From Bacteroidales bacterium (GTDB lineage Bacteria; Bacteroidota; Bacteroidia; Bacteroidales; VadinHA17): a stretch of DNA of 42,801 nt. A program made the position numbers and the translations under genes. Under the pieces are notes generated by a model, which was not told where the DNA came from, searched no databases, and was given only the letters and a program-made list of their open reading frames with translations. The DNA lies in contig PLNF01000095.1 of assembly GCA_003141715.1 (NCBI GenBank), positions 1 through 42,801 on the forward strand. The letters are read 5' to 3'. Shown here in pieces: positions 2,962 through 23,227 of the stretch (position 1 is the first letter of the stretch; every line of letters starts with the position of its first letter).

Positions 2962-4884
2962 TTACAATTTATATGCAAAACTAATTTTTAATCCGAAATA
3001 TTTGATTTTTGTAGGTTGGTGAGCATAGGTTTTACCGAAAATATCCACGTATTTTTTCTTATTGCTTAAAATATCGGATAAACCTATAATTATATCCGGG
3101 CCAATATTTATTGAAGAATAGTAACCCATTGGAATATTAACGCCTATTGAACTGTATAAAGCCATGCTAAAGCCTTTCAGGTTGATCTTACCGTTTTCAG
3201 AAATATTTTCTCTGTTGTAAAAACCAATTTCCGGAAAGTCAAGAGTATCTGTTACAGCAGGGTGGAAAGGAAAATAACCTGATGTTTTATAATTTCCTGA
3301 AATTGAATATGATGTCCTGACAGGAATAGATATTTTAACTCCTCCTTCGGCATAAAATCCAAATTTGCCTGGTTTCCCGCTGGTGTAATTTATTAATATC
3401 GGGAGAGTTAAAAAGTTGATTGTAACCAGGGAATCATAATTTGCTGCAATCATCTTATAGTATAAATTCCCATTGATATCAGCGTTAAAAACATTATTTT
3501 CGAAATTGCCGGTCAGATTGAATTTAGTTGAGTACTTACTGAACTCTATTCCGCTTTTTAAAGCAATATTATCGGTGAAATAGTAACTCACTCCTAGTGC
3601 AATCAGATAACCATAGAGAGGAGAAACATTCCATGAATGCATATTTACTGTGTCCGAAAGTGATGTTATATCTTTGGAGTTTATCTGTGTTTGGCCGAAT
3701 GAACCAGTCACTGATATTCCAATTCCCTTGCGGGTAACGGGTTTTATTACTAATTCTGGTTTTTGTACCGTTGTATTTCCGGGAGTTGTCTCATAAAAAT
3801 TTACAGATGAAATATCTACACTGTTTATAACAAAACCTGTGTATGTTTTTCCGGATGAATTAAAGGATATTTTAAAAATAAGCGGGAACATTTTACGAAA
3901 CACATCCTTACCTTTAAAACTTCCTGAGAAGAACTTATCTGCATATACATAGGTGGAATAACTACCTTCCCCGGCCTTGATTATGTTGCCATATTTTGCA
4001 GAGTCGGTATTAATGGAAATGTTTTTTATACCGATGGGGTAGTTTGTTGTGAAACCGGAGATATAGTCTGAAACAGAGATAAGACTAGTCTGAGGTTCAG
4101 GATTTATATCATTAAATAATCTGACCTCACCACTCTGGAACAGTTTTAAAAAACTGGTTTTATAGAATTCTTTATCTTCGGCCTGTTCCTGCGGGTCTCC
4201 GATTAATGATAGAAAATTAGTATAGTCCTTAAGCAAAGTTTTAAGCTCGCTCCGGATCTTTGCAAGATCCTCTGCATTAAAGTCTTCACTCCTAACCTCT
4301 TTTAGTGTCTGGGAATAATCGATTACATAATTTGATAATGCGTTTCTCACACCAACGATTTTGAAGTTGGATAATGATTTGTTTTCCATGCCAAACGCAA
4401 TTCTGAAAGTCAGTTCTTCAACATTTTTATTAAGTGTCTGATTCAAATAGTTCCCATTTATTGTTTTTTTAACCAGAATGTCAATAGAATATACATTTCC
4501 TTCATGGGTCATAATATCACTGACCTTTGCATTTCCCAGGTCGAGCTGAATTGATAACCCATCAGGATACCAAAGAATAATGTTGGAGGAATATGTCTCA
4601 GCCTCATAGAATTCGCTCAGCTTATGGGCAGGATCAAGATCATTGTAGATAAGTACCTGCCTGTTCACAAATAACTCAAGAAAGCTTTCCGCATTGCTTT
4701 TAGCTTTTTCAATATCATTTACGATATATTCTCCTGTTTTATTAATAATAGTCTGATAATTCTCAAGGATTTTAACAGCATTTGTATAAATTATCGCCTT
4801 CTCCTTAACAGAAAACTCAGTTGCCTTCAATTGAGACAATTGAACGAACAGGAGACCAAGAAAAAACAATGATAATCGTTTCAT
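2962..4884 (-). CDS. outer-membrane beta-barrel protein with duplicated N-terminal domain (640 aa)
   Basis: A signal peptide covers residues 1-22. Residues about 24-190 and 197-355 look like two copies of one domain: both contain a helical lead, an FLELF/FLKLF motif, ND(L/I)(D/N)P, a YP-x-G strand and a closing strand ending in VGVRN or INSVD. From about residue 383 (VTRKGIGISVTGS) alternating amphipathic strands with Gly/aromatic turns extend to the C-terminus (YFGLKISFAYKL), as in Bacteroidota outer-membrane beta-barrels. The 634-aa protein at 16481-18385 is a clear full-length paralog. The gene follows the 1533-aa T9SS cargo by 12 bases, which suggests a cargo-specific anchor or translocation helper. 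It does not look like the PorP/SprF family. The exact role is unknown. Confidence 0.85.
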   Translation of the reverse strand: MKRLSLFFLGLLFVQLSQLKATEFSVKEKAIIYTNAVKILENYQTIINKTGEYIVNDIEKAKSNAESFLELFVNRQVLIYNDLDPAHKLSEFYEAETYSSNIILWYPDGLSIQLDLGNAKVSDIMTHEGNVYSIDILVKKTINGNYLNQTLNKNVEELTFRIAFGMENKSLSNFKIVGVRNALSNYVIDYSQTLKEVRSEDFNAEDLAKIRSELKTLLKDYTNFLSLIGDPQEQAEDKEFYKTSFLKLFQSGEVRLFNDINPEPQTSLISVSDYISGFTTNYPIGIKNISINTDSAKYGNIIKAGEGSYSTYVYADKFFSGSFKGKDVFRKMFPLIFKISFNSSGKTYTGFVINSVDISSVNFYETTPGNTTVQKPELVIKPVTRKGIGISVTGSFGQTQINSKDITSLSDTVNMHSWNVSPLYGYLIALGVSYYFTDNIALKSGIEFSKYSTKFNLTGNFENNVFNADINGNLYYKMIAANYDSLVTINFLTLPILINYTSGKPGKFGFYAEGGVKISIPVRTSYSISGNYKTSGYFPFHPAVTDTLDFPEIGFYNRENISENGKINLKGFSMALYSSIGVNIPMGYYSSINIGPDIIIGLSDILSNKKKYVDIFGKTYAHQPTKIKYFGLKISFAYKL

Positions 4885-4896
4885 AATATTGTTTTG

Positions 4897-7800
4897 TCAT
4901 TCAATAATAATCTTTTTATTTGAGGTTAGCCCATTAATTTGCAGGTAAATAAAATAGATCCCTTTTGATTGTTTGCTGAGGTCAATCTGATTCCGGAAAT
5001 GCTCAGTCGTCTTCTCAAACTTATGATTGAGCACCTGTTTTCCTTCCTGGGTCATTACCAATATCATTAACTCTCCGAATTTCTGGTTTTCCATCTCAAT
5101 AGTAAATATCCCTGAAGTGGGATTGGGGTATATCTTCAGACCGGAAAACGGATCGATATCCTCAATTCCTGTAATCCCGGTTGGGATCGTTATAACATCG
5201 CTTGCAGTATAGCACCCCTTTGCATTTCCAATACTTACATAATAATTCCCGAGATTCTGGTTAGCCACATAGAGATATTTATCAGCTCCGGGAATCAGAT
5301 TCCCATTATAATACCATTTGTAATGCGACGCGTTGACAATACTGCATGCAAGGTACCAGACAATCGGTCCCTGGGAATAAATTGATGGTTTTGCAGGAGC
5401 ATCATTATAAATTATGGATTGCACGGCAGATTCTGTTTTGCATCCCGACAGGCTTACTTCAACAATATAATCACCTGCAGGGAGAATTCCGGAGTAACTG
5501 CTTCCGGTGGCATCGCTGATTGGGGTCCCGTTACGTTTCCATTGATAATTATATTCAGTCACCGGCTGATCAACACTGAGAATGATCTGGTTTTCGCCGG
5601 GGCACTTTCCTTCCTGGTAATTTTCAGGCACAATCACAGGAGTGGCCGGCATATCAAGCTTAGTGACCAGCACTTGCGAAGAAGTGTCCGTGCATGAACC
5701 CCTGGTATTTGTCACTTCAACTGAATAATTCCCTGTCAGTTTTGCAGTATAATTGTTTGCTATTGCATTAGTTATGCCTGTACCGTCAAGCATCCATACA
5801 TAAGAATACTGAGGATTGCTGCCAACCGACAGAGTTACGCTGTCCCCGTCGCAGAATGACAAGTGGGTATTAGCTGTAATTACTGCAACCGGATATGCAC
5901 CGACAGAGACAGTTTTTATTATGGAATCAGCACATCCGTTAGTGGCAATAGCTTTAAGTTTAACTATATAATCTCCTGCATTTATATATCCATGATAGTC
6001 AGGATTCTGTGCCGTGGAAAATAATCCATCTCCAAATTCCCATCTCCAATCTGAAATATTTAGATCATGGATATTTGTCATGTTCAAAAAGGCTGTGACA
6101 GTTCCCTGACAAGCAACATTTGCTGAAAAATCATTTTCTGGCGTATCCCGAACTATTACATCATGTGAAATTTTTACGGTATCATTTAGGATAGAAATTG
6201 CTGTCAAAGTGATCTTAAATGTATCGGCATATGTATAAGTATGTGATGGTGCAGATTCTGTCGCAAAGGTTTTATCGCCAAAATCCCAAATATAAGATGC
6301 TATTGGATCAGTAGATAAAGTCAGATTCGTAAAGTCAGTTGTATTTCCCAGACATACTGAATTAAATTTGAATTCAGGACTGATTGTTGTAACAACAAAG
6401 GAATCTATTGGGGCCCATGGGCCTCCGCAATATGCCTGATCGATAGCTTGTGCAGACCAATAATACTTGCCCACCGGAAGATTTTTGAGGATCCAGGACT
6501 TATTATATTGTACATTCCCCATCTGGACTATTTTTCTAAAACCTGTATTGATATCTGAATAACAAGGCATAATATCCTGCTTCCATGGTTTGGTGCCAAC
6601 AATAATATTGTAGGTTAATGAAGATGAAGGAGTATGATCATCTGTAGCATCGTTCCATGACAGGAGTACATTTAAGCCAGACATTTTAGACTTTAATGAA
6701 GCTGGAGCAGAAGGAGCCACGTTTTTATTAGCATATTGATTAGTGAAAACATATGGACTTTGAAAATAATATCTAGCAAAATAATAGCCTAAGCCTAAAA
6801 TATCAATATCGTGGTCATTGTCAACATCAGATAGCGCAATCGTTTTTAATGTACAGCCTTCATAGGGCAAGTCTACAGCTATAAATCGATTTCCCTGATC
6901 ATTTTCAAATAACTGAATTACATTATTGTTTTGATCGAAAAAGAGTATGTCCAAGTACCCGTCATTATTAAAATCAGCCCAGAAAACCTCAGTCCCAGGA
7001 TAAGTTGAAAGATACGTGCCGGTAAAAACCAACTTGCCACTGTCGTTTCTGAATACTTTGTTTCCTGCAATTAAATCGGGATATCCATCATTGTTATAAT
7101 CACCCCAGGCAGCACATGTGCCTGAATTATCAAGGTATTGATAAAAAGTATATACACCATTATCATTTCTAAATAATGAATCACCAATCAGGACATCATA
7201 ATCCATATCAAGATCTATATCTGCATAGGATATTGCACCAGTTTTTGGTAGAAGCGCCTGGGTTCTAATAATTGTATCAGTTGTATTGATTCTTAGCTTT
7301 TTATAGATGTGGCCATTATTGACTATATCCTCCCTTCCATCATTATCAAAATCGAAACATGCCAATGGTCCTGAAATTTCAGAAGGTAATGCTTTATTTA
7401 AATAGAATATAGGATTTATTACACCCTGAAATGATGGATTGGTAACAGAACCTAATATTAGAAGGTCAACTGTTCCGTCCTGATTATAATCTATAGGTTT
7501 GGCATTATAAATAGAGCCTGTGAAGGGGCCGGCTTCGGTACCACCAATAATGAGATGAACTGGAAATTGTCCGGGTCCAGAAACCGTCTCGAAATAATCG
7601 TATACTGCATCAAGTTTGCCATCATTATTTGCATCATATGACTCAAAAAAGACATTTTGATTTATTGCCGCATACCCGTTACAAGTATTAAAACCTGTGA
7701 AGCTAAATCTCTGAAAATCTATTGTCCCCGTTTTAAATGTGGAGCCTGCAAAACAATTATCAATAGCCTGCACACCAAAATAATAGCTTCCTAATGGTAT

Positions 7801-9498
7801 ATTTTTAATTCTCCAGGAATGATTTTGCCCTGCATTTCCCTCATCAATAATATACCTGAATCCATCTGCCTGATTTGAATTCGGAGATATAATATCGCAA
7901 CCACCGGGTGTAGTAGATAAAAATAGGTTGTAGGTAAGTGCATTTGAAGGTGTTCTATCATCAATTGAAGAATCCCATGAAATAACCAAATCGCCATTTT
8001 CATATTTAGCTGAAACAGTTTGTGGTGGAGCAGGTGGGCTATTCTTCTGAAGGCCTTGATTAATAAAAACGCTATTCAAATTTGCTATATCAATTTTTCC
8101 ATCTTTGTCATAATCAATGAAATATGGATTACTTCCAAAGAAGTTATATTCTGTTTTTTGAAAAGTTCCATTTTTATTTTCATATAAAACTCCACCATGC
8201 AGTAAATCTAAATCTCCATCATTGTCATAATCTCCAAAACTGTTTTTTCCAGCCGGATTATCTATTCTTTGACTTAAATGAAATGATCCCGAGTCGTTTA
8301 TATAAACAACATTACCAATTATAAAATCAGTAAAACCATCCATGTTAAAATCACCAACTGCAACATCTCCACTATCTGGAAGCTGAATAAATTCGGAAAG
8401 CACGCCATTAATATTTTTATAAATTTTATTCCCGATAATAGCATCAAAATCTCCATCATTGTCTATGTCTATCCAGGCACCGGAAGAATTAGTCGAAGTT
8501 ACAGAGACAACTTCATCAAAATTGAATAATCCATCATTTTTATAAACCTTTGTGACATTACCAAGATTTGCATGCTTGCCATTTATCAATAAATCGTATT
8601 TTCCATCGTTATCAAAATCTTTCCAGTCTTGCTTAGTTGCATTGAAAGCAACTATTGAAGGAGTTTTCTGAATAAAGTTTCCATTCTTATAGATAGAAAG
8701 CTGCGTCATATTATTGGAAGACATGGGATCATAACCGCTGCATAAAGCCTCCAGGTAGCCATCATTATTCATATCAATCCATCCTGAACCAGTAATAATC
8801 TGGTTTGAACTTACATTTAATTGATTAGGATAGACAAATAGATTATTAGCAGTTTTATAATAATACTGATCATACCCGCTCATAAATAGCTCATATGTAT
8901 CATCCCTGTTATAATCTAACCAATTAGAAGAAGTTGAAAATTGACCAGCATTCTGAAATGTTATGATGCTATTTGATTTAAAAATTGGTCGTTTTATATA
9001 AACAGTATAATCTTCAGTTTCTCCATAGGCAAATGTATTGCAGGGATCTACTTTAGTATTATAAATACAACGTACTCGCAACCTGGTTTTTACTGAACCT
9101 AATGCTGCAGGAATAGTAAAACTTATTGAATTTATTTGTGAAGCCGCAGTAGATTTAAATTTTCCTATCAGTTCACCGGCATCGCTAAAATCATTATCTT
9201 TATTATAGTCAATCCAAACTGCAAAAGAATCCACGGCATAAGTTCCATTAGTAATTGAAATAGCATAACTATTGCCTACAATTAAAGTCGTGCTTAAGTA
9301 GGTATAATCGCTAAAGAAATTTGGCGCCGGAGCCTTCCCTGTTGAATTGTTAATGCTATCGAGCTTAACCAAGGCAATATAATCGCCATATGTATTGCCA
9401 GATGCATAAGTTGGGATACAATAAGTTTGTCCAAACAAAACTGATTTCTCTGCGAGTAATACTGTGCATAAAATGAAAATTAACAACTTGTTTTTCAT
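4897..9498 (-). CDS. T9SS-secreted GEVED/FG-GAP double-propeller surface protein (1533 aa)
   Basis: A signal peptide (residues 1-23) and a C-terminal T9SS type A sorting domain (about 1450-1533, starting LKIYPNPTSGIFTIEM) mark it as exported through T9SS and attached to or released from the cell surface. Order of domains: GEVED-like domain (about 25-168, ending GETEDYTVYI); FG-GAP/VCBS array of seven repeats (174-486); Fn3 (490-594); second array of seven (595-923); Fn3 (928-1035); two PKD domains (1040-1195; WDFGD and WEFGD); two Ig-like domains (to about 1370); sorting domain. The FG-GAP repeats carry DxDxDG-type Ca2+-binding loops, many of them degenerate. Repeats here are more diverged than in the other two giants. 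The last 0.94 kb of the coding region is almost identical to that of the 2198-aa gene. Probable role: adhesion or glycan binding; no catalytic domain was seen. Confidence 0.92.
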   Translation of the reverse strand: MKNKLLIFILCTVLLAEKSVLFGQTYCIPTYASGNTYGDYIALVKLDSINNSTGKAPAPNFFSDYTYLSTTLIVGNSYAISITNGTYAVDSFAVWIDYNKDNDFSDAGELIGKFKSTAASQINSISFTIPAALGSVKTRLRVRCIYNTKVDPCNTFAYGETEDYTVYIKRPIFKSNSIITFQNAGQFSTSSNWLDYNRDDTYELFMSGYDQYYYKTANNLFVYPNQLNVSSNQIITGSGWIDMNNDGYLEALCSGYDPMSSNNMTQLSIYKNGNFIQKTPSIVAFNATKQDWKDFDNDGKYDLLINGKHANLGNVTKVYKNDGLFNFDEVVSVTSTNSSGAWIDIDNDGDFDAIIGNKIYKNINGVLSEFIQLPDSGDVAVGDFNMDGFTDFIIGNVVYINDSGSFHLSQRIDNPAGKNSFGDYDNDGDLDLLHGGVLYENKNGTFQKTEYNFFGSNPYFIDYDKDGKIDIANLNSVFINQGLQKNSPPAPPQTVSAKYENGDLVISWDSSIDDRTPSNALTYNLFLSTTPGGCDIISPNSNQADGFRYIIDEGNAGQNHSWRIKNIPLGSYYFGVQAIDNCFAGSTFKTGTIDFQRFSFTGFNTCNGYAAINQNVFFESYDANNDGKLDAVYDYFETVSGPGQFPVHLIIGGTEAGPFTGSIYNAKPIDYNQDGTVDLLILGSVTNPSFQGVINPIFYLNKALPSEISGPLACFDFDNDGREDIVNNGHIYKKLRINTTDTIIRTQALLPKTGAISYADIDLDMDYDVLIGDSLFRNDNGVYTFYQYLDNSGTCAAWGDYNNDGYPDLIAGNKVFRNDSGKLVFTGTYLSTYPGTEVFWADFNNDGYLDILFFDQNNNVIQLFENDQGNRFIAVDLPYEGCTLKTIALSDVDNDHDIDILGLGYYFARYYFQSPYVFTNQYANKNVAPSAPASLKSKMSGLNVLLSWNDATDDHTPSSSLTYNIIVGTKPWKQDIMPCYSDINTGFRKIVQMGNVQYNKSWILKNLPVGKYYWSAQAIDQAYCGGPWAPIDSFVVTTISPEFKFNSVCLGNTTDFTNLTLSTDPIASYIWDFGDKTFATESAPSHTYTYADTFKITLTAISILNDTVKISHDVIVRDTPENDFSANVACQGTVTAFLNMTNIHDLNISDWRWEFGDGLFSTAQNPDYHGYINAGDYIVKLKAIATNGCADSIIKTVSVGAYPVAVITANTHLSFCDGDSVTLSVGSNPQYSYVWMLDGTGITNAIANNYTAKLTGNYSVEVTNTRGSCTDTSSQVLVTKLDMPATPVIVPENYQEGKCPGENQIILSVDQPVTEYNYQWKRNGTPISDATGSSYSGILPAGDYIVEVSLSGCKTESAVQSIIYNDAPAKPSIYSQGPIVWYLACSIVNASHYKWYYNGNLIPGADKYLYVANQNLGNYYVSIGNAKGCYTASDVITIPTGITGIEDIDPFSGLKIYPNPTSGIFTIEMENQKFGELMILVMTQEGKQVLNHKFEKTTEHFRNQIDLSKQSKGIYFIYLQINGLTSNKKIIIE
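4980..5920 (-). repeat. near-identical 3' coding segment, copy 1
   Basis: This segment encodes the Ig-like domains and T9SS tail of the 1533-aa protein and is almost identical to 9838-10783. In the 180 bases from 5221 only about five differences are visible. Identity drops sharply past about 5920, inside the second PKD domain. Copy 2 has a 6-base insertion that adds Tyr-Ser. Confidence 0.9.
6730..7715 (-). repeat. FG-GAP array, 7 units (1533-aa gene, second)
   Basis: Seven repeats: SYDANNDG, PIDYNQDG, CFDFDNDG, YADIDLDM, WGDYNNDG, WADFNNDG, LSDVDNDH. Two loops have lost the final Gly. The edges are approximate. Confidence 0.78.
8040..8975 (-). repeat. FG-GAP array, 7 units (1533-aa gene, first)
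   Basis: Seven repeats counted by their Ca2+-loop cores: WLDYNRDD, WIDMNNDG, WKDFDNDG, WIDIDNDG, VGDFNMDG, FGDYDNDG, FIDYDKDG. Units are shorter and more diverged than in the other giants. The edges are approximate. Confidence 0.8.
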
Positions 9499-9698
9499 CT
9501 CTTACGTTTATTTATATACCTAAAAAAAACATACGCCAAACGACTTAGATTTTTGAGGATGAAAAAAATTTTCAATAGTTCCAATATAGTTTTCTAAAAG
9601 TATTATGATAGTAAACGCTTTCATTTCAACTGACGTTAAAAGAAATATCCACAAAATTCAATACTGTCTTCCTTCTTAATCAATTCTATCTATAAGAA

Positions 9699-9753: not shown

Positions 9754-12700
9754 TTACTCTACGATCACCTTCTTTATAGCAGAATATTTGTCAATCAGCA
9801 TATTAATCAGATACATCCCTTTTGGCTGACCACTCAGGTCTATCTGACCGAAAAAATGCTCAGTCGTCTTCTCAAACTTAAGATTGAGCACCTGCTTTCC
9901 ATCCTGGGTCATTACCATAATCATTAAATCTCCGAATTTCTGGTTATCCATCTCAATAGTAAATATCCCTGAAGTGGGATTGGGGTATATCTTCAGCCCG
10001 GAAAATGGATCGATATCCTCAATACCTGTAATCTCAGGAGGGATAGTTATAACATCGCTTGCAGTATAGCACCCCTTTGCATTTCCAATGCTTACATAAT
10101 AATCCCCGAGATTCTGGTTAGCCACATAGAGATATTTATCAGCTCCGGGAATCAGATTCCCATTATAATACCATTTGTAATGCGAAGCGTTGACAATACT
10201 GCATGCAAGGTACCAGACAATCGGTCCCTGGGAATAAATTGATGGTATTGCAGGAGCATCATCATAAGCAATGGATTGTATAGCAGATTCTGTTTTGCAT
10301 CCTGACTGGCTAACTTCAACCGTATAATCACCTGCAGGGAGAATTCCAGAGTAAGAGTAACTGCTGTCGGTAGCATTGCTGATTGGCGTCCCGTTCCGCT
10401 TCCATTGATAACTATATTCAGTCACCGGCTGTTTAACACTGAGAACGATCTGGTTTTCACCGGGGCACTTTCCGTCCTGGTATTTTCCAGGCCAAATTTC
10501 AGGAGTGGCCGGCATAACAAGCTTAGTGACCAGCACCTTCGATGAAGTTGTCTTGCACGAACCCCTGGTATTTGTTACTTCAACTGAATAATTCCCTGTC
10601 AGTTTTGCAGTATAGTTGTTTGTTATTGCATTAGTTATGCCTGTACTGTCAAGCATCCATATATAAGAATACTGAGGATTGCTGACAACCGACAGAGTTA
10701 CGCTATCCCCGCCGCAGAATGACAGTGGGGTATTAGCTGTAATTACTGCAACCGGATATGCCCCGACAGAGACAGTTTTTATAATTGTACCGGAGCATCC
10801 GTTATCAGCAGCAGCCATTAAAGTAAGCTGATAATCACCGGCACTAAGGTAGCCATGAGAACCCGGGTTCTGGAATGTGGAACCTTTTCCGTCACCATAA
10901 TCCCATGTCCAGGATAAAATATTGAGTCCTGTTGTATTTGTCTGGTTAACCAGAACTGTTTCAGTCCCCTGGCATGCAACAGATGCGGTGAAATCTACAG
11001 GTGGCACTGCTTTTACGAGTACCTGTTTATTTAAGGTATCTGAATTAGTGGCTGAAGATGCAACAAGGCTTACATTATGCGTTCCCGGGGAACTGAAAAC
11101 ATGGGTTGGATTCTGCAGAATGGAGGTTGTACCGTCCCTGAAGTTCCAAAGATAGTTCTGTATAACATCTCCGTAAGCGGTTGACTGGTTGGTGAAGGTT
11201 GTGCTTAGGCCCATGCATACTGTATCGGCAGAGAAAAAGGCCAGAATATTCTTGACAGCAAATGAATCGACTCTTGACCAGACTCCTCCTTTAAATCCCT
11301 GGTCAACAGCCTGCACGCTCCAAAAATATTTTCTGGCGGGCAAGTTTTTCAGAAGAAATGCAGTATCAGTCTCAGCATTCCCAATGGCTGGAATTTTTCT
11401 GAAACCTGTCGGAGAAGAATTAGATGAACAAATATTTGCGCTGTCTTTTTTTGTGCCTACTCTCACATTGTAGGTCATGCTCTTAACCGGGGTCTCATCA
11501 TTTTTAACAGGGTTCCATTTCAGAATAACGCCTGAGGGTGAATTAGCTGCTGAAAGTCCTGTGGGAGTTGCAGGCGCAGTATTTGGCTTAAATAACCCTG
11601 ATTTCATTATTAAGTTATTCTTATAAATTATTGTCGGGAGACCATCCTTAGCTAATATGAAATCCAGATCACCATCATTGTCATAATCAACCCAACTGGC
11701 ATAACCATACCCTACACTGCTCAAACCTTCATCATCCTGCTGATTAAACCATTGATCAAGTGCGCCCGGTACTGTAATTCCTCTTGTGTTTCTATAAATT
11801 TTGGTATCAAGACCGGGGTTAGTTAATATAATATCGAGGTAGCCATCATTGTCATAATCGCCCCAGGCAGCAGAACACCCACCCTGATAAGGAAGATAAA
11901 CTGCATCGTAAAGCTTGAATTGATTGTTCCCAAGATTTTCATAGATCGACATCTGTCCAGGTTTTGTCATTATAAAATCCAGTTTACCATCTTTATCAAA
12001 GTCGCCCCATGCAGCTGATGAAAAAGAAAAACCAGGTAACTGCATCTGTGTCTGCTCAGAAAAAGTGTTATTGCCATTATTCCTGTAAATTTTTGAAACA
12101 TTGTTAGTATAGTACTGATTATCCAGTGCACCATTTAAAAGAATATCAGTGTTCCCATCATTATCATAATCGCCCCATATTGCAGAACCTTTGAAAACGC
12201 CTGTAAGCGGGATTTGTGCCTGTTCGGTAAATGTGCCATTGCCATTGTTCCGGTAAATTTTTGAAACCGGATTGTAATTAGGATCGCTTCCGGTAGCTCC
12301 TGTCAACAAAATATCCAGATTCCCGTCATTGTTATAATCACCCCAGGCCACTGAGCTGTAATAGACTGGTGTCAGAGATATTTGAGCCTGCTCTGTAAAA
12401 ATATCATTCCCGTCATTTCTGTAAATTTTTGTAACAGGACCGGAAGAAGGATAGCCATTGACAGTGGCGCCGGTAATTATAATATCGAGATCCCCGTCAT
12501 TATCATAATCACCCCAGGCGGCAGCCCCGTCTCTTACGCTAACCAGGGAAATTCCTGTCTTTTCAGTGAAAGTGTTATCGCCATTATTATGATAAATCCT
12601 GGTCGGAAACCCGGGTATAAGAAGATCTAAAAATCCGTCATTGTCATAGTCACCCCACACGGCATTGTTATTGTATGAGTCAGGTAATGTGATACCGGTT

Positions 12701-15700
12701 TGTTGTGTAAAGAGACTTGTACTGAATACTCCGGGGTTACCATCTGCAGTCTGGGTAAAGTATTGTTCAGTTCCCATGCCCCCCATATATTCAATAACAT
12801 GAAAGCTGTATTGAGTTTGATAAGTCAATCCCGTAACATTGACACTATCGTATCTTCCATCATAAACACAGTACCAGCCTGATGAACCGATCTGTCCTCC
12901 AAAGCCATACTGGCTATCCGGTATATAGCCGGTATTGTTTACCGGAGCTGCCAGCCCGGAAGATGCCTCTTTGCAAAACACAGCACACCGGTCTCCATTG
13001 CCTCTTTCCCATTTTAACAATAGGCTGTTATTATCTGATATTGTGGCTGAAAGGCTTTTTGCCTGAACAGGCACCACAGTGAAGGTGCTTTCGGTGGAAA
13101 ATGGGCTGCCTGCAAACTCTTTATCAATTGCCTGGACGCTCCAGTAATAAGTTCCAAAGGGAAGATTCTTAAAGAGGAAGGTTGTATCTAAATTGCAGTT
13201 CCCTATTTCTGCCAGCCTCCTATAGCCTGTTGCAGCGGAAGAATTTGGACTCATTATATTTATTCCACCGCTTACTGTGCCGGTTTGTATATTATAAGAC
13301 ATTGATTTATAAGGAGTGGTAATATCAGTCCGCACACTGTTCCATTTCAGATTCACATCCGATTTATTAACACTGGAGGTTAATCGAACAGGCGCTACAG
13401 GCTTGATATTGGCAACTCCCAGATCGTTTCTGTAGATTTTTGAAACTGCCGCATTTGAAGTGCTTCCTGTCAATATGATATCAAGATCACCGTCGTTATC
13501 ATAATCACCCCAGGCAGCTGAACTAAATCCGACTCCTGTAAGGGAACAAGCCGGATCCTCAGTGAATGTGTTATCGCCATTATTTTTATATACTTTGGTG
13601 AAAGGGGAATAGGATCCGGAGTATCCTGTCAATAATATATCAGGTTTTCCGTCATTGTTATAATCACCCCACACCGCTGTGCCATACATAACTGGAGGCA
13701 AAGACAGCCCGGGGAGTTCTGTAAAGGTATTATTCCCGTTATTATGAAAGACTCTGGAACCTACAAGCAAATCAAGGTTGCCATCGTTGTCATAATCGCC
13801 CCAATCGATCATGCCATAAGAATCGCCGGGTAAATGAATGCCTGTTTGTTCGACAAGATTATTGCCCTTGTCGTTATGATACACTTTTGTGACATCTGTT
13901 CCATTGTTTAGAACTCCTGATAAGAGTAGGTCAAGAAATCCGTCATTATCATAATCACCCCATTTTACATCACCCATCATTACTCCGGTAAGTGAGATCA
14001 AACTTTGTTCGGTGAATGTATTGTTTCCATTATTTTTAAAAACCTTTGCAATATAAGAGCTGGTGGATGTCCGGCCTGTTATCACCAGATCAAGATATCC
14101 GTCATTATTATAGTCCCCCCATGCAACTGCCCCATAAGCAGTTCCGGGGAAAACAATACCAGGCTGCCCCGTGAAGGTACCGTTTCCATTATTCTTATAT
14201 ATTATGGGAGGGTCTCCATTGATTATTATATCAATATAACCATCATTGTTATAATCTCCACATGATGCAGAATAACCGGGAGTGAAAGAAACCGGCAATA
14301 ATGTAAAAACATCATTCCCGTCGTTCCGGTACAGTCTTGTGACAGATTCTCCGACAAGCAACAGGTCAAGATCATTATCATTATCGATATCTATCCAGTA
14401 GCTGTGAGAGCCCTGAGAATACCCTAAACTCGGCGAGGTTACAGGCAGCAGATTTGCATTTTTTGCTTCTGTAAATATTCCGGTTTTATAAATCAGGGGA
14501 TTATTTGCCGATGTGTTTGTATTATATGCTTCAGATCCTGCATTGCCATCGAATTCAATCACCTGGAAGATGTAGTTTGTATTTGCTTTTAAGCCGGTGA
14601 CATTTACCGAGGTTAGCGTTCCCTTATATACACTGTACCAGCCTGAAGTTCCAATCTGAGACCCTGATTTAAATACTGAGGATGCAGTATAGGTAGTATT
14701 ATTAACAGGGGCAGCAACTCCGCTGTTTCCCTCTTTGAGGAATACTATGCAATTTGCGCCGTTCCCGCGCGACCAGGTCAATGTTGATTCTTTTCCGCCA
14801 ATAACAGGAACATTTAACCCGAATGATTGGTATGAAGCTGAATATGTGAATGTTGATTGAGTAGAAAATACACCTCCTTTAAAGCAATTATCCACTGCCT
14901 GAACTTTCCAGTAATATGTTCCTTTTTTAATATTTCTTAAAACAAAGCTGGTATCAAGCTGCCCGTTTCCCATCCCTGAAATTCTGCGAAATCCGGTGGT
15001 GGAAGAGTTAGGCGAAACCTCATTTATGCCTCCTGGAGTAGTCCCGACCATTAAATTATATGATAAAGATCTGGCAGGAGTATTATCAGAAGTGACGGGC
15101 TTCCACTTCAGGATAGCATCATTGCCTGATGAAGCTGAGGTTAATCCTGCAGGCGCAGCAGGAAGAGGATTGATTACAGAAGAATTATTTCTATATACTT
15201 TACATATCTTTGATGTTCCTTTGTTCCCTTCGATCAGGATATCCAGGTCGCCATCATTATCATAATCACCCAGGTCGATAGAACTTCCATTTACGCCATC
15301 CAAAACAATGCTTGTTGCTTCCGTAAATGTATTGTCCCCATTATTAAAATAAATTGTTGTTATATTGCTGCCATTGTAATTACCTGAAATTATCAGATCG
15401 AGATTTCCGTCATTGTTCAGATCTCCCCATTTCCCGGTACCGTTGCTGACTCCCTTAAGAACGATTCCGGACTGCCAGGTAAAAGTATTATCGCCATTAT
15501 TTTTATATATTCCGGAGAAGCCGTTTCCGGTCAGAAGAAGATCAAGAAAACCATCATTGTTATAGTCTCCCCATTCTGATGATCCTCCGATCAGGCTATT
15601 TAGAGATATCCCATTCTGAATAGCAAAAGAATTATTACCCTGATTCCGATAAATTGAAGAAGCAGAGTTGCCAGTTCCTAATATGCCGGTCAGAATGATG

Positions 15701-16350: not shown

Positions 16351-16440
16351 TATGATCAGGTTTCGAAAAAATAGCCACAAAATTTAATATAATTTTCTGC
16401 CAAATGCAAGTTTTAATCAGCTTATTTGACTAAACAAGAG

Positions 16441-16480: not shown

Positions 16481-18385
16481 TTACAATTTAAATGTCAGGC
16501 TCACTCTCAGCCCCAAAGTCATGATCCTGGCCGGCTGATGGGCATAACTTTTCCCAAAGATATCAAAATAAGGTTTGTCTTTCATAATATCTGTAAGCCC
16601 AATATTTACATCTGGTCCGGCAGAGAACCACCAGTAATAACCAAGCGGGATATTTACGCCGGCTGAGGCATAGAAAGCCAGGCTGATCTTATTAAAATCA
16701 GCTTTCCCTGTCTCATCTATATTTTGCCGGTTGGAATAGGGGATGATATAAACCCCATAATCTTTTGCGGGGAAATAGCCTGAATAATTATAATTGCCGG
16801 TAGTGGTGTAAGTTGATCCGACAGGAATGGAAACCTTAAATCCGCCAAAACCATAGAATCCGAATTTCCCGGGTTTCCCGCTGGTGTAGCTTACCAGTAC
16901 CGGAATCGTAACCATATTGATTTTTAGGACAGAATCGAGTGTTGCCGTAACAACTTTATTAAAGCTGATGCCATTGACATCAATTGAAAGAGAATTATCA
17001 GTAAAAGTTCCATTAAGAGCATATTTTGAGGAATAGATATTGAATTCCAAACCACTGGTAATCGCTATATTATCATTGAAATAATAATTTACGCCTGCTG
17101 CGCTCAGGAAGCCGAACATAGGAGTTAAGGTCCATGAGTGCCGGTTGTCGGTCATATTCATAGAGGTGACGTTCTTTACATTTATGCTCGTCTTAAGTAA
17201 TGACCCGACAAATGATATGCCAAATCCTTTCCTTGTAACAGGTTTAATCGTCAGTTCCGGCTTTTTCTCTTCACCTCCACCCGGTGCTGCCTGGTAAAAG
17301 TTTGCAGAGGCAACATCGATGCTGTTGATTATGAAATTTGAAAAAGTCTTGCCAGAAGCTGAGAAGGAAATTTTAAATACAAGCGGAAACATTTTGCGGA
17401 AAGCATCCTTACCCTTATATGAACCTGAAAAGAACTTGTTTGCGTCAACATATATATTATAATTGCCTTCCAGGCTCTTTATCACTTTGCCAAATTTTGC
17501 TGAATCGGCATTAATTGACAGGTTTTTTATACCGTTCGGATAATCTGTCATATAGCTATCGAGGTAATCTGCAACCGATATCAGGCTGGTCTGTGGTTCA
17601 GGAGAAATGTCGTTATAAACTTTTGTATCATTCCCGGGGAAAAGCTTAAGAAAGCTTGTTTTGTAAAATTCCTTATCATCTGAAGATTCCTGAGGGTCTC
17701 CCAGAAGAGAAAGATAATTTCCATAATCCTGAAGCACTGTTTTCAGCTCAGACTGGATCTTTATAATATCATCTTTTGAAAATTCTTCGCTGTTTACCTC
17801 CCTTATTGCCTTCGTATAATCAATTTGCATGTTGGAGGAAGCATTTCGTATTCCGACTATCTTGAAACTTTCCGGAGTTTTGTTTTGGAGGCTGAATGCA
17901 ATCCTGAAGGTAACCTCCTCGGTATTTTTATTCAGCGTCTGGTTAAGGTAGTTACCGTTGATAGCTTTCTTTATCATGATGTCGATCGAGTAGATGTTTT
18001 CTTCGTGAGCCATTATATCGCTCACCTTAGCATTCGGAATATCGAGGTTTATAGTTATTCCGTCGGGATACCAGAGAATGATATTCGATGAATATGTTTC
18101 TGCCTCATAAAATTCACTAAGCTTGTGTGAAGGATCAAGGTCATTGAATATTAGTACCTGCCTGTTCACGAACAGTTCGAGAAAACTCTCGCCATCGCTT
18201 TTTGCTTTTTCAATGTTATTAACAACTGAAACCCCCATGCGGTTAATTATCGCCTGGTAGTTTTCCAGTACTTTCACGGCATTAGTGTAGATTATTGATT
18301 TCTCCTTGTCTGAAAAATCAACTGCTTTTAATCCTGTTGCCTGGATAATTATGAAAAGCAGTATAAGAGCAATCGGTCTTTTCAT
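16481..18385 (-). CDS. outer-membrane beta-barrel protein, paralog of the 640-aa protein (634 aa)
   Basis: A signal peptide covers residues 1-21. Two N-terminal domain copies (about 22-190 and 197-355) share FLELF/FLKLF, NDLDP/NDISP and YPDG/YPNG landmarks with the paralog at 2962-4884. A barrel runs from about residue 382 (VTRKGFGISFVGS) to the end (LGLRVSLTFKL). Similarity to the 640-aa protein is continuous, with blocks such as ELFVNRQVLI and AETYSSNIILWYPDG unchanged. The gene starts nine bases after the stop of the 1610-aa T9SS cargo, the same arrangement as the other copy, so cargo and barrel are probably co-translated and functionally paired. Unlike the other copy, no small secreted genes follow it. 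The molecular role is not known. Confidence 0.86.
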   Translation of the reverse strand: MKRPIALILLFIIIQATGLKAVDFSDKEKSIIYTNAVKVLENYQAIINRMGVSVVNNIEKAKSDGESFLELFVNRQVLIFNDLDPSHKLSEFYEAETYSSNIILWYPDGITINLDIPNAKVSDIMAHEENIYSIDIMIKKAINGNYLNQTLNKNTEEVTFRIAFSLQNKTPESFKIVGIRNASSNMQIDYTKAIREVNSEEFSKDDIIKIQSELKTVLQDYGNYLSLLGDPQESSDDKEFYKTSFLKLFPGNDTKVYNDISPEPQTSLISVADYLDSYMTDYPNGIKNLSINADSAKFGKVIKSLEGNYNIYVDANKFFSGSYKGKDAFRKMFPLVFKISFSASGKTFSNFIINSIDVASANFYQAAPGGGEEKKPELTIKPVTRKGFGISFVGSLLKTSINVKNVTSMNMTDNRHSWTLTPMFGFLSAAGVNYYFNDNIAITSGLEFNIYSSKYALNGTFTDNSLSIDVNGISFNKVVTATLDSVLKINMVTIPVLVSYTSGKPGKFGFYGFGGFKVSIPVGSTYTTTGNYNYSGYFPAKDYGVYIIPYSNRQNIDETGKADFNKISLAFYASAGVNIPLGYYWWFSAGPDVNIGLTDIMKDKPYFDIFGKSYAHQPARIMTLGLRVSLTFKL

Positions 18386-18394
18386 ATTAGCAGG

Positions 18395-21300
18395 TCATTG
18401 GATAATTATTTTGTTGTTTATACTGAATCCCTTAAGAGACATTGTAATAAAACATATTCCCTTTGGCCGTCTGCTTAGGTCCATCTGGCACGAAAAAAAT
18501 TCTGTTGTCTTTTCAAGCTTGGTCTTCAGAATTTCCTTTCCATTCTGGTCCAGCGCCGAAATATAAAGATCGCCGAACAAATTATTGTCCATTTCAACTG
18601 TAAATAGTCCCTGGCCCGGATTAGGATAGATTTTCAGGTTTGCGAAAGGGTCGACATTTTCTATTCCTGTAATGCCGGTCGGTATAGTAACCGGATCGCT
18701 CGCATTATAGCATCCCTTATCGTTTGCAATCGTAACCCAGTATTGTCCGTAATTTCTATTTGCCAGATAAAGGTAGTTGTCAGCTCCAATGATCTGTTTT
18801 CCGTTATAATACCAGATGTATTTTGCTGCGCTTGTATCGCTGCATACAAGATACCATACATTTGGTCCATTTGAGTATATCACTGGTTTTGGCGGGGCAT
18901 CGAGGAAAGATATATTAAGTATATCAGAAGTGGTTGTGCATTTGTCAAGTTTTGCTATAAGAGTATATGCTCCCTGTGAGAAGACTGATAAATATGGCGA
19001 TATGGCATCGCTTATAATAACCCCGTTTCGCATCCATTGATAGTTATATCCTGAGACAATCTGGTCAGCATTCAGCTTTATTGGATCCACTCCGGGACAT
19101 TTACCCCGCTGGTAATTACTGGAATCGATCACTGGCTTGAAAGGATTTGGATTAATTGTAACTGTTTTTTGTTCTGTGTTTGTGACGCAATTGGCCATGG
19201 TATTGGTAACAGTTGCAGAATAGGTTCCCGAGAACAATTTTACCTGATAATTGCTGGAATCAGCATTTGTAAGGTTATTGTTATCCATTTTCCACTGATA
19301 AGTATAGAGAGGATCGTAGTCTGCAGAAAGTTGTACGCTTTGGCCCTGGCAGAATGAGAGCTTACCGTCAATTGATACTGATGATCCGGGGTAACCGGCT
19401 ATAATAACATCTTTGGTTATGCTGTCAGCACAACCATTTGTGGTCATTGCCTGCAACTTTGTCCTATAAGTACCTTTAATTGGAAAGGTATGGGTCCCGG
19501 GCTGTTGAAGAGTTGAAATGAGACCGTCTCCAAAGGTCCACATCCATCCTGATGATGTCAGGCCATTCAGACCTGAAGTATTGGTTATTGCTGTTGGAGT
19601 TCCCAGGCAAACGTTTGGCGCTGTAAAAGAAGCCAAAGGTACGGCCTTCACAATAACATTCTGTAAAAGGGAGTCTTTGTCCCCTGCTTTGCTTGTTACC
19701 ACCAGTTTGACATTATAGATTCCGCTCAGAAGATATAGATGCACCGGGTTCTGCAAAGTTGATGCTGATCCGTCATTGAAATCCCATTTCCAGGATGCTA
19801 TTCCATCAAATACTACAGATTGATCTGTAAAATTTGTCAGCAGCCCTTTGCAGACAGTATCTGTCTTAAAAAATGCCTGTGTATTTTTAATTGTAACAGA
19901 ATCTAAACCTGACCATACACTTCCTGAAAAACTTTGGTCAATCGCCTGTACCTGCCAGTAATATATTCCGGAAGCAGGATTTTTAATGATATAATTCCTG
20001 TTTAATTGAGTATTTCCTAGATTAATTAAACTCCTGTTCCCATTTGCTAAAGCTTCTGGGGCAATTTTCCAATTCGGCTCATTTTTTAATTTGCATTTTA
20101 AATTGTAGCTCATATTTATTGGAGAAGTCTCATCATTAGTAACAGAGTTCCATGATAATTTAACAATTCCAGGAGTTATTTCGCTTGCTAAACCGGTCGG
20201 TGCATTTGGCCGCATATTCGACTTTATCCTACCAGCTTTCATGTAAAGATTATTTCTATAAATTTTTGAAGAAAGTGCACCGGTATAACCCGATATTAAT
20301 ATATCCAGATCACCATCATTGTCATAATCAGCTGATGAAGCGCTACAAGCTATTGCACCAGGTAACTGAATAAAAGTTTGATCAATAAATTTGTGGTTGC
20401 CATTATTCAGATAAATTTTGAACACATAATTTGAACCTGAATCTCCGATTAATAGAATGTCAAGGAGTCCATCATTATTATAATCACCCCAGGAAACTGA
20501 ACCATTATATATACCGGTTAAAGAAGTGCCGGTTTCTTCAGTAAAAGTATTATTACCATTATTATGATAAATCTTTGATATTGGATTATAGTTTGGGAAA
20601 CTTCCTGATGATCCAACTAATAAAATATCGAGATTGCCATCATTATCATAGTCTCCCCAGGCCACGGAGCTATAGCCGGCGCCCATTAATGATATGCCGC
20701 TTTGTTCCGTAAAACTATTGTTGCCATTATTTTTGTATATTTTAGAAACTGGGTTCCCGCTTGCATCTAATCCCGCTATTAGAATATCCAGGTCTCCATC
20801 GTTATCGTAATCTCCCCAGGCTACTGATCCGTTGTAAACACCTGTCAATGAAATCCCGGTTTGCTCAGTGAAAGTATTATCTCCATTGTTGCGATATATT
20901 TTGGATACTGGACCAATGTCAGTATTATAGCCTGTAATTATGATATCAAGATAACCATCATTATCGTAATCACCCCAGGCAACAGAACTATTGTAAACTC
21001 CGGTTAATGATATATCAGTTTGTTCAACAAATGAATTATTGCCATTGTTTTTATAGACTTTGGCAATTGGGCCTAAATCGTTATTATAACCTGTAATTAA
21101 TATATCCAGTAAGTCATCATTATTATAATCACCCCATGCAACTGAACCCCAATATACACCTGGTAATGAAATGCCGATCTGATCTGAAAATGAATTATCA
21201 CCATTACTCCGGTAGATTTTAGTAACGCCATTACTGCTGAGATTCTCACCGGTTAGAAGTATGTCCATGTACCCATCGTTGTCATAGTCGCCCCAGGCTA

Positions 21301-23227
21301 CAGAACTTCTTCTAAGACCTACCATTGAAATACCAGACAGGTTAGTAAATAGTCCGGAGCTGAAAACGCCTATATTATCATTATTTTCATTAGTTGCACT
21401 TGCATATAACTCTGACCCATTAGGTCCTTGAAATTCAATGGCATGAATAGTGTAATCTTTTTGCGGGTCCAATCCGCTGATCATAACAGAATCAGCCTCT
21501 CCTTTATAAATACAAAACCATCCTGTTGTTCCTAGGGGAGAACCTTCTCCAAAAACTGGGTTGGCAAAATAAGTTGTATTGTTTACCGGGCTTGATGGAC
21601 CGGAAGTTCCTTCTTTAGCGAAAAGAATGCATCTGTCGCCATTTCCTCTTTTCCATTTTAACAATAGCGATGTAGTGCTTATATTACTGGCGGTGAGCGA
21701 AGATGGTTGAATGGGAGTTATTTTAAACTGAACCTCATCAGAGAAAAGACCTCCTTTATATGAGTTATCTACTGCCTGAACACTTGCGTAATAGGTTGTA
21801 TCCCAGCGTAGATAATTAAGAATGAAAGTCGTATCAAGCTGGCAATTCCCCATGGTTGCTATACGCCTGAATCCGTTTGAAGCAGAGTGAGATGATACAA
21901 AATCACAAGCTCCGCTTGTTCTTCCTACTCTGACATTGTAGGTTATCGATTTTGAGGCCGTTTCATCTTTATTAATCCGGTTCCATCTTAACAGAGCTTT
22001 CGTATTCTGGATTTCATAACCAAGATTTTTGGGCTGATCAGGATTTTTATTGATTTTTTCGCAATTATTCAGATAGATTTTGGAAATTAAATTGCCAATT
22101 GAATCCTGTCCAGTCAATAAAATATCCAGATCGCCATCGTTGTCATAATCACCCCACGCTGTTGAACTATAACCAACTCCAGTAAAAGCAATGCCGGTTT
22201 GTTCGGTAAAACTGTTGTCGCCGTTATTAAGATAGATTTTAGAAACAGGAGTCAGACCGATATTACCAGTCATTAAAATATCCAGGTTGCCATCATTATT
22301 GTAATCACCCCAGGCAATTGATCCATTTTTTGCTCCTGTTAAAGAGATCCCAGTTTGTTCAAAAAAATTATTTTTACCATTATTCTGGTAGATTTTTATA
22401 ATATTGGTAAAATTTACATCTTCACCGGTTAATAATATATCCAGATAGCCATCGTTGTTATAATCTGCCCATGCAACTGAACTATAAGAAACGCCTTTTA
22501 ATAAAATATTGGTTTGTTCAGTAAAACTACCATCCCCATTGTTACGATAGATCTTTGAAATCCTGTTAATGCTTGTAGTTTGTCCTGTTAATAAAATGTC
22601 GAGATATCCATCATTATCATAATCTCCCCAGGCTGCTGATCCGTAACAGACGCCAGTAAAGGAAGTCCCTGGCACTTCAACAAAGTTACCATTGCCATTG
22701 TTTCGATAAATCTTAGAAATACGTTCTGCTGATTCTGATAAACCTGTCAATAAAATATCGAGATTACCATCATTATCATAATCTCCCCAGGCAACAGAAC
22801 TAAGATAAACACCTGGCAATCCGATTGCTATTTCTGTAAAATTACCATTATCATTACGATAGATCTTCGATATTGCATCAGATGAAAGCCCGGTAGTAGT
22901 TCCGGTTATTAAGATATCCAGATATCCATCATTATCATAGTCACCCCAGGCAACGGAGCCTAGAAAAACACCAATTATCGAAATACCGGTTTGTTCTGTA
23001 AAAGTATTATCACCGTTATTGTGGTATATTTTGGTTACCGGACCTGAGTCTGACCAGCCACTTAATATGAAGTCCAGATAACCATCATTATCATAATCGC
23101 CCCATGCAACAGAACCCTGACTAACTCCCGCAATTGAAATATCGGTTTGTTCTGTAAATTGTTGCGAAAACAGATTAAGTGAAATTATTTGGAAAAACAA
23201 AAATGTTAAAAGATGTAATTTTTTCAT
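18395..23227 (-). CDS. T9SS-secreted double-propeller FG-GAP surface protein (1610 aa)
   Basis: A signal peptide covers residues 1-22 (MKKLHLLTFLFFQIISLNLF). Order: FG-GAP array of seven (about 22-391); Fn3 (393-497); Fn3-like RGNG domain (499-625); second array of seven (626-999); Fn3 (1005-1100); PKD (1110-1185; WKWDFNDG); PKD (1190-1270; WTFGDG); two Ig-like domains (1275-1440); T9SS type A sorting domain (about 1530-1610, LKIYPNPGQGLFTVEM). The repeats are unusually regular at DNA level, with a phrase encoding WGDYDNDG recurring every 160-200 bases. The C-terminal third is homologous to the two other giants but clearly more diverged. The barrel gene follows after nine bases. Likely a cell-surface Ca2+-dependent binding protein. 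No Bacteroidota-type promoter was found in the 213-base gap upstream. Confidence 0.92.
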   Translation of the reverse strand: MKKLHLLTFLFFQIISLNLFSQQFTEQTDISIAGVSQGSVAWGDYDNDGYLDFILSGWSDSGPVTKIYHNNGDNTFTEQTGISIIGVFLGSVAWGDYDNDGYLDILITGTTTGLSSDAISKIYRNDNGNFTEIAIGLPGVYLSSVAWGDYDNDGNLDILLTGLSESAERISKIYRNNGNGNFVEVPGTSFTGVCYGSAAWGDYDNDGYLDILLTGQTTSINRISKIYRNNGDGSFTEQTNILLKGVSYSSVAWADYNNDGYLDILLTGEDVNFTNIIKIYQNNGKNNFFEQTGISLTGAKNGSIAWGDYNNDGNLDILMTGNIGLTPVSKIYLNNGDNSFTEQTGIAFTGVGYSSTAWGDYDNDGDLDILLTGQDSIGNLISKIYLNNCEKINKNPDQPKNLGYEIQNTKALLRWNRINKDETASKSITYNVRVGRTSGACDFVSSHSASNGFRRIATMGNCQLDTTFILNYLRWDTTYYASVQAVDNSYKGGLFSDEVQFKITPIQPSSLTASNISTTSLLLKWKRGNGDRCILFAKEGTSGPSSPVNNTTYFANPVFGEGSPLGTTGWFCIYKGEADSVMISGLDPQKDYTIHAIEFQGPNGSELYASATNENNDNIGVFSSGLFTNLSGISMVGLRRSSVAWGDYDNDGYMDILLTGENLSSNGVTKIYRSNGDNSFSDQIGISLPGVYWGSVAWGDYNNDDLLDILITGYNNDLGPIAKVYKNNGNNSFVEQTDISLTGVYNSSVAWGDYDNDGYLDIIITGYNTDIGPVSKIYRNNGDNTFTEQTGISLTGVYNGSVAWGDYDNDGDLDILIAGLDASGNPVSKIYKNNGNNSFTEQSGISLMGAGYSSVAWGDYDNDGNLDILLVGSSGSFPNYNPISKIYHNNGNNTFTEETGTSLTGIYNGSVSWGDYNNDGLLDILLIGDSGSNYVFKIYLNNGNHKFIDQTFIQLPGAIACSASSADYDNDGDLDILISGYTGALSSKIYRNNLYMKAGRIKSNMRPNAPTGLASEITPGIVKLSWNSVTNDETSPINMSYNLKCKLKNEPNWKIAPEALANGNRSLINLGNTQLNRNYIIKNPASGIYYWQVQAIDQSFSGSVWSGLDSVTIKNTQAFFKTDTVCKGLLTNFTDQSVVFDGIASWKWDFNDGSASTLQNPVHLYLLSGIYNVKLVVTSKAGDKDSLLQNVIVKAVPLASFTAPNVCLGTPTAITNTSGLNGLTSSGWMWTFGDGLISTLQQPGTHTFPIKGTYRTKLQAMTTNGCADSITKDVIIAGYPGSSVSIDGKLSFCQGQSVQLSADYDPLYTYQWKMDNNNLTNADSSNYQVKLFSGTYSATVTNTMANCVTNTEQKTVTINPNPFKPVIDSSNYQRGKCPGVDPIKLNADQIVSGYNYQWMRNGVIISDAISPYLSVFSQGAYTLIAKLDKCTTTSDILNISFLDAPPKPVIYSNGPNVWYLVCSDTSAAKYIWYYNGKQIIGADNYLYLANRNYGQYWVTIANDKGCYNASDPVTIPTGITGIENVDPFANLKIYPNPGQGLFTVEMDNNLFGDLYISALDQNGKEILKTKLEKTTEFFSCQMDLSRRPKGICFITMSLKGFSINNKIIIQ
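20230..21350 (-). repeat. FG-GAP array, 7 units (1610-aa gene, second)
   Basis: Seven repeats, five with WGDY(D/N)NDG cores, one with WGDYNNDD and one with SADYDNDG. The edges are approximate. Confidence 0.85.
22050..23161 (-). repeat. FG-GAP array, 7 units (1610-aa gene, first)
   Basis: Seven repeats, six with WGDY(D/N)NDG and one WADYNNDG core, nearly all ending in LDILLTG or a close variant. Confidence 0.86.

Follow-up and report, generated by a model that had tools for sequence, protein, structure and literature searches.

The window analyzed here, which is 42,801 nucleotides in length, is one whole contig (PLNF01000095.1) of a 3.7 Mb Bacteroidales genome (GCA_003141715.1). The named relatives are Bacteroidia MAGs. 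The minus strand of the window contains seven consecutive genes in the transcription order G3-B2-G2-G1-B1-O2-O1. G1, G2, and G3 are giant T9SS type A cargos, B1 and B2 are outer-membrane barrels, and O2 and O1 are shorter proteins. The intergenic gaps measure 9 bases between G3 and B2, 100 between B2 and G2, 255 between G2 and G1, 12 between G1 and B1, and 23 between B1 and O2, and the O1 and O2 reading frames share a four-base overlap. A first-pass annotation of this DNA had described a giant cargo followed by a paralogous barrel, occurring twice with gaps of 9 and 12 bases, and a third giant lacking a barrel of its own. The open reading frames bear out this description, with the third giant being G2, directly downstream of which there is no barrel gene. 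Absent from that annotation were O2, O1, the doubled N-terminal domain of the barrels, and a domain common to the cargos that precedes the C-terminal domain, hereafter referred to as the CTD. The G2-G1 gap contains one promoter-like site, the frequency of which is no higher than in shuffled sequence. There are no terminator-like sites in the two larger gaps (B2-G2 and G2-G1), and the stretch searched revealed neither a tRNA nor an Rfam match at gathering scores.

The three cargos consist of 1610 residues for G3 (18395..23227, minus strand, as are all features of the seven genes), 2208 for G2 (9754..16380), and 1533 for G1 (4897..9498). The start of G2 as called is a TTG codon, and the first internal methionine lies ten residues further in. 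According to Pfam, all three proteins contain FG-GAP repeats and PKD domains in addition to Ig/fn3 domains, with fn3 listed for G3 and both GEVED and Ig_7 for G1. Each terminates in a type A CTD (Por_Secre_tail, PF18962), delineated by 18401..18631 in G3, 9760..9990 in G2, and 4903..5133 in G1. The PF18962 scores are 50.8-58 bits for G1, 46.0-53.7 for G2, and 31.9-39.1 for G3, all above the cut-off of 27, and the NCBIfam model TIGR04183 is likewise over its cut-off in G1 and G2. Immediately N-terminal to the CTD is an Ig-like domain, which we refer to as the handle, at 18680..18889 in G3 (99 bits), 10039..10248 in G2 (107.6 bits), and 5182..5391 in G1 (108 bits). Note that the handle profile includes both G3 and G1. 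The last 300 residues of G2 are 84% identical to those of G1 and 50% identical to those of G3, and thus the barrel-less G2 resembles the cargo neighboring B1. At the DNA level, G1 and G2 share 87-89% identity at their ends (4936-5235 and 5492-5791 versus 9793-10092 and 10355-10654), and the two proteins share 53% identity over their best alignment of 929 columns. We read the C-terminal part of G1 and G2 as the outcome of a recent duplication or of gene conversion.

The barrel proteins B2 (634 residues, 16481..18385) and B1 (640 residues, 2962..4884) are 61% identical over 640 aligned columns. Their match to OMP_b-brl_2 (PF13568), with scores of 44.2 and 44.3 bits against a cut-off of 27, is confined to the last ~220 residues, and the barrel domains extend over 16484..17248 in B2 and 2965..3747 in B1. 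PorT/SprT belongs to this same family, and barrels of this type are eight-stranded; the membrane topology of B1 and B2 is inferred. The first ~375 residues have no Pfam family and are built from two related copies of one domain, the NTD, positioned at 17807..18340 and 17261..17806 in B2 and at 4306..4839 and 3760..4305 in B1. The NTDs would lie in the periplasm. The barrels had been described as unlike PorP/SprF, and this holds: Pfam assigns PF13568 and no PorP/SprF or PorV-type family, and NCBIfam gives no match whatsoever up to an E-value of 0.1, in libraries that we take to include a PorP/SprF model. Membership in the PorP/SprF family was rejected on the basis of the missing family-model match and the type A CTDs of the partners, and membership in the PorV family because there is no match to NF033710.

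O2 (208 residues, 2312..2938) begins, by eye, with a signal-peptide-like sequence. It is a single-domain protein homologous to the NTD (hhalign E-value of 1.8e-6 over 127 columns). Profile searches of PDB sequences gave nothing significant for either the NTD or O2, and an NTF2/SnoaL-like fold for both is a guess. O1 (287 residues, 1452..2315) directly follows O2 and has no Pfam family; comparisons did not support it as a homologue of the NTD or O2. The order of cargo, barrel, O2, and O1 recurs in six loci (L021-L026). In one of these, L025, the contig end leaves only a 97-residue CTD tail of the cargo, and the barrel reading frame is broken. Across the six loci, the O2 counterparts share 79-86% identity with O2 of the window. 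The barrels are less conserved than O2, with identities of 57-63% to B2 and 58-75% to B1, and O1 also falls below it at 53-61%. Of 393 genomes of the order, 81 contain a match to the O2 profile.

Upstream of G3 and divergent from it is a gene for a caspase-domain protein (PF00656, 26415..28247, plus strand), whose role in the unit is uncertain. It is followed, beside the cargo array, by a Reg_prop/Y_Y_Y/SpoIIE protein (28312-31590, plus strand). Two Fib_succ_major proteins (PF09603) are encoded at 23441-26164 and 31703-32365, both on the minus strand, one of which contains internal repeats of ~297 bases together with fn3. Caspase genes recur at several cargo/barrel loci, and at six (L058, L061, L072, L087, L164, and L180) such a gene directly follows a barrel with a single NTD. 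In another genome (L167:9930-15079), a cargo array is flanked by a caspase gene and by a gene of 1088 codons, comparable in length to the Reg_prop/SpoIIE gene.

Members of the barrel family can be sorted by their NTDs. Class A barrels, which include B1 and B2, have tandem NTDs and number 20 from five families of the order. All 20 have a CTD-A cargo directly upstream, 19 have O2 directly downstream (the exception being B2), and 17 have O1 after O2 (not B2 or L057, with L083 cut by a contig end). Class B barrels have one NTD and are 409-503 residues in length among those read. Class C barrels have no NTD and contain 268-353 residues as called. The first five class C members, which were found by similarity to B1/B2, all have a CTD-A cargo directly upstream, and one of the five is located elsewhere in the genome under study on contig C69. 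No O2 or O1 accompanies the class C pairs in the stretches read. Genome G051 (L025:302-2051 / L227:4673-6422) has an interrupted class A barrel gene followed by open O2 and O1 frames, reflecting either real decay or an assembly error.

A gene-neighborhood search of the barrel family, suggested as a check in the first-pass annotation, was carried out in 98 related genomes. The profile search revealed 43 barrel-family places in 29 genomes. Of these, 34 places, spread over 22 genomes, hold a strong barrel, defined as one scoring at least 113 bits; the next-best place scores 96, and the cut was chosen after this gap had been seen. Three of the 43 places are located at contig ends, and 40 were judged. 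In 34 of the 40, a CTD profile (>15 bits) identifies the immediate upstream neighbor as a CTD-A cargo, a count made up of 32 by script, two of which score only 16.6 and 17.5 bits, and of L151 and L227 by reading. In four others (L219, L220, L224, and L225) the upstream giant has, by eye, a CTD-like end, and Pfam finds no Por_Secre_tail in these giants or in that of L222. The remaining two places, in genomes G083 and G031, have neither directly upstream, and in G083 a handle cargo lies three genes upstream. Ten of the 43 places were rows of the search model, without which the counts become 24, 4, and 2 of 30. In the barrel model A12, class B is represented by members picked among the cargo-adjacent ones, which biases the search against cargo-less members. 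The gap between cargo and barrel is less than 50 bases in 27 of the 32 script-counted pairs, the largest being 224 and 474.

The NTD was also followed throughout the order, where its profile matches 24 of 295 genomes, the present one included. There was no match in 391 other genomes of the phylum, for each of which up to eight first-look candidates were scored. Barrel-length NTD proteins of the order were read, leaving out G143:C71 and G111:C15, and 20 were judged; L058 and L073 start at contig ends and stand outside this number. A cargo is found directly upstream in 11 of the 20 (B1, B2, L057, L061, L062, L063, L064, L068, L070, L072, and L074). In L059 a handle cargo lies three genes upstream, and an OmpA-domain gene follows the barrel. 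The other eight have no CTD-A cargo in the stretch read, namely L060, L065, L069, and L071, which form one family, and L066 (twice), L067, and L075. The barrel profile matches the former four and not the latter four, which thus perhaps lie outside this barrel family. In L060, L065, L069, and L071 the NTD-barrel follows a protein of 851-893 residues of unknown family and precedes a pair of genes encoding 122-130 and 767-771 residues, with CarboxypepD_reg-like and PKD domains in the pair of L060; these barrels thereby have a constant set of partners of a different kind. The L066 cluster (3270-18294) encodes two barrel-length NTD proteins and two O2 proteins without a CTD-A cargo, as well as a C-terminally extended O1, a papain-like protein, and a Fib_succ_major protein.

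Alignment of the cargo ends revealed that the handle, ~70 residues in length, lies directly before the CTD in cargos paired with close barrels. The handle alignment of 28 rows, all drawn from one joint alignment, contains invariant W, G, Y, C, and S residues. Left out were the L074 cargo, which has no visible handle and no handle-profile match, that of L025, which is cut by the contig end, and some near-duplicate rows. Profiles built from one class recognize the handles of the others: the class A profile scores 39-66 bits to B and 23-46 to C, the class B profile 38-67 to A and 38-60 to C, and the class C profile 14-38 to A and 28-46 to B. There are 20 CTD-A cargos over the cut-off in the genome under study, and the 16 that are unpaired give best scores of 9.3, 11.2, and 13.8 bits across the three class profiles; the margin between the lowest cross-class score (13.9, C to A) and the best unpaired one (13.8) is thus minimal. 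As a caution, the handle may be a generic Ig_7-type domain.

In the 98 genomes, strong handles (at least 59 bits) occur at 38 places in 18 genomes. The next score is 52.9, and again the cut was chosen after seeing the gap, down to 53 bits. The neighborhoods of the 20 places new to the analysis were read. A family barrel is encoded directly downstream in 13 (L151, L154-L161, and L163-L166), and L167 adds one more cargo to the array terminated by the L024 barrel. The cargos of L149, L150, and L153 are orphans, with a barrel elsewhere in their genomes. In L148 the handle cargo precedes a second FG-GAP giant, which runs off the stretch, with a barrel elsewhere in the genome, L152 lies at a contig end, and in L162 the next gene is, by eye, an ATPase-like open reading frame, with barrels elsewhere in the genome. 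As controls, 20 regions with weaker Ig-like matches (33-53 bits) were read, and a family barrel adjoins the cargo in three of them (L171, L180, and L068, the last corresponding to G092).

By genome, strong handles and strong barrels occur together in 18 cases, the barrel alone in 4, the handle alone in none, and neither in 76, seven of which have a weaker barrel. The Fisher P value for this table is 4e-16, which is too small given the relatedness of the genomes. The corresponding counts are 15, 1, 0, and 42 within the genus and 3, 3, 0, and 34 outside of it. The four genomes with a strong barrel and no strong handle are G051, where the cargo is cut by a contig end, and G083, G092, and G074, with best handle scores of 53, 40, and 40 bits. 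The first-pass annotation had suggested an unrecognized partnership between type A cargos and these barrels. Neighborhood, handle, and co-occurrence speak for it, and the eight cargo-less proteins among the 20 order-wide NTD proteins speak against it. The partnership looks real, and it is wider than that annotation saw.

Chance adjacency was evaluated within the genome under study, which has 15 matches to PF13568 corresponding to 14 genes, with two frames of equal length on one contig counted as one. With 3,200 genes assumed, ~0.09 cargo-barrel neighbors would be expected versus the three observed (B1, B2, and that on contig C69), giving a Poisson P of ~1e-4 for pairs that are not independent, since B1 and B2 are duplicates. 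On this basis, chance adjacency was rejected. No listed CTD-A cargo lies within 8 kb of any of the remaining 11 PF13568 genes on their respective contigs, contig ends not being taken into account. B1 and B2 differ from PF13568 barrels in general on this point and in having an N-terminal domain without a Pfam family.

More distant barrels were found in 15 of 391 other genomes of the phylum (E-values up to 1e-14, with up to six candidates per genome scored), 14 of which belong to one genus of another order. In that order the gene directly upstream ends, by eye, in a CTD-A-like manner in 17 of 18 places. The CTD profile gives 10-25 bits for 16 of these tails and nothing for one. Of four tails submitted to Pfam, two are over the Por_Secre_tail cut-off, one reaches 24.3 of the 27 bits required, and one has no match. 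Handle scores in this order are weak, ranging from none to 44 bits. All five long distant barrels tested are fused to an OmpA domain (PF00691), namely L235 and L241 from the other order and L222, L223, and L225 from the 98-genome survey. Four of the five are cargo-adjacent, the exception being L222, and PF13568 is below its cut-off in two and at the cut-off in one.

Among the parts compared over 43 pairs, the handle diverges least, with a mean distance of 0.70 as compared to 0.79 for the CTD, 0.81 for the barrel, and 0.91 for the pre-handle region. In class C, barrel distances correlate with those of both the handle and the CTD (r of 0.80 each) versus 0.21 for the pre-handle region. In class A the values are 0.65 for the handle, 0.71 for the CTD, and 0.65 for the pre-handle region. 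A handle that diverges least, together with the class C pattern, is as might be expected of a docking end, with shared descent explaining part of it. Within classes the barrel also diverges in step with the CTD, and in class A with the pre-handle region too, which leaves the CTD as a possible contact and makes shared descent part of the signal; by distance correlation, either the handle or the CTD may be the contact. Barrel loops L2 and L3 are conserved to about the level of the best strands in class C and are not outstanding in class A, a comparison given little weight since the strand borders were set by eye.

According to PMC12618676, PorV recognizes all type A CTDs, and PMC10994853, PMC10202324, and PMC12618676 describe PorV as the carrier of type A cargos, which are subsequently either released or attached to lipopolysaccharide. 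The genome under study has a PorV gene on a separate contig (493 bits, NF033710). We favor, with a probability of roughly 0.6, a model in which the small barrel docks the handle/CTD end of the neighboring type A cargo and thereby ties the giant to the envelope. By their domain content, G1-G3 are ordinary type A T9SS substrates, which would cross the outer membrane first. The extracellular loops of the barrel encoded directly downstream would then dock the handle Ig domain, possibly together with an uncleaved CTD, such that the giant is held on the cell surface. The periplasmic part of the barrel would tie the complex to the cell; this part consists here of two NTD copies together with the soluble O2 and O1, elsewhere of OmpA, and in the simplest cases of nothing. 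The OmpA domains on the one hand and the NTD/O2/O1 set on the other look like alternative periplasmic ties. G3 would be served by B2 and both G1 and G2 by B1, an assignment suggested by position and by the nearly identical ends of G1 and G2. Given PorV in the genome and the ordinary type A CTDs, the most likely point of action for the barrel is after PorV or alongside it. Of the roles put forward in the first-pass annotation, namely anchoring, presentation, and signal transfer, anchoring is favored on account of the OmpA domain in some barrels of the family.

Three other explanations were weighed against docking. The barrel might be a dedicated shuttle that replaces PorV, pulling the CTD from the SprA/Sov pore and handing it on in the manner of SprF. 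Its co-divergence with the CTD would suit such a role, but the CTDs of G1-G3 are ordinary type A with PF18962 over the cut-off, PorV is present, and the part peculiar to paired cargos is the handle. Moreover, the barrel belongs to PF13568, unlike the known T9SS shuttles, which are FadL-like and larger. The location of the barrel gene directly downstream repeats the gene order of type B cargo and SprF given in PMC12618676. A lysine within the last nine residues in 41 of 47 paired CTDs, on the other hand, fits the PorV contact described in PMC10994853, and on balance a shuttle is unlikely.

Somewhat less probable still is a relationship of co-expression only, in which an old operon is retained and its products act separately, or the barrel is a transient folding or quality-control helper. 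A single ancestor could account for all of the pairs, and the four barrels of one family in L060, L065, L069, and L071 have no adjacent CTD-A cargo. Yet the cargo heads differ (FG-GAP, LRR, fn3, and Ig_7) while the handle and CTD stay with the barrel, the heads of distant-pair cargos, whose CTDs were identified by eye, include a BspA-type LRR and a GH38-type glycosidase, and no strong handle occurs in any of the 76 genomes that lack a strong barrel. The least probable of the three is a surface sensor, with the cargo as the ligand-binding head, the barrel as the transducer, and NTD/O2/O1 as a relay to the periplasm. It would account for the conservation of the class A NTDs (0.54 and 0.51 versus 0.38 for the barrel), for O2 being a homologue of the NTD and, in L021-L026, better conserved than any other gene of the unit, and for the frequent caspase neighbors, followed in the window by the Reg_prop/SpoIIE protein. 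Class C barrels, however, keep the pairing with cargo without an NTD, and without O2 or O1 in the stretches read, and a barrel of presumably eight strands offers no evident route for passing a signal.

PorQ and PorV are PorV-family barrels. In the PorZ-PorQ and PorU-PorV pairs of the attachment complex a type A CTD is kept on an outer-membrane barrel uncut, that of PorZ staying on PorQ, as described in PMC10202324; here this would only perhaps be the case. Those pairs are core parts of the machine, whereas the present ones combine giant repeat cargos with a neighboring barrel. There is also a likeness to the type B cargo and PorP-SprF pairs, such as SprB-SprF and PG1035-PorP-PorE, where, according to PMC12618676, PMC9143113, and PMC10202324, the cargo gene is directly followed by that of its cognate barrel, a single barrel may be shared by several cargos, and there is a peptidoglycan-linked periplasmic part, PorE in that case and OmpA in some of the barrels here. 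Unlike those pairs, the present ones have a type A rather than a type B CTD, a PF13568 barrel, a separate Ig-like handle before the CTD, and NTD/O2/O1 parts, of which we saw no mention there. If our inference holds, the cargo/barrel unit would work like PorP/SprF without belonging to that family.

No earlier description of the pairing between handle cargos and barrels was found in open-licence PMC texts. We consider it an even chance that these barrels constitute a second class of cargo-specific outer-membrane partners in Bacteroidia, in which an OmpX-sized barrel holds handle-bearing type A cargos and the periplasmic module is exchanged like an adapter. If so, release and A-LPS attachment would be joined by a third fate for type A cargos, namely a cargo-specific anchoring route with its own recognition domain. 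Sequence data would then help in predicting which type A cargos remain cell-bound, and functions would be suggested for a PF13568 subfamily and for the O2, O1, and NTD proteins.

O2-like proteins also occur in a separate cassette, as in L088:3900-8762, where an O2-like protein and O1 are followed by a protein of 807-903 residues. By the ORF caller used, the cassette is present in nine of the 11 loci read (L088-L098, not L093 or L095). In several of these a small gene that is, by eye, lipoprotein-like lies 5' of the cassette. Some of the 807-903 residue proteins have an NTD- or O2-like start, and all five tested contain LRR_4.
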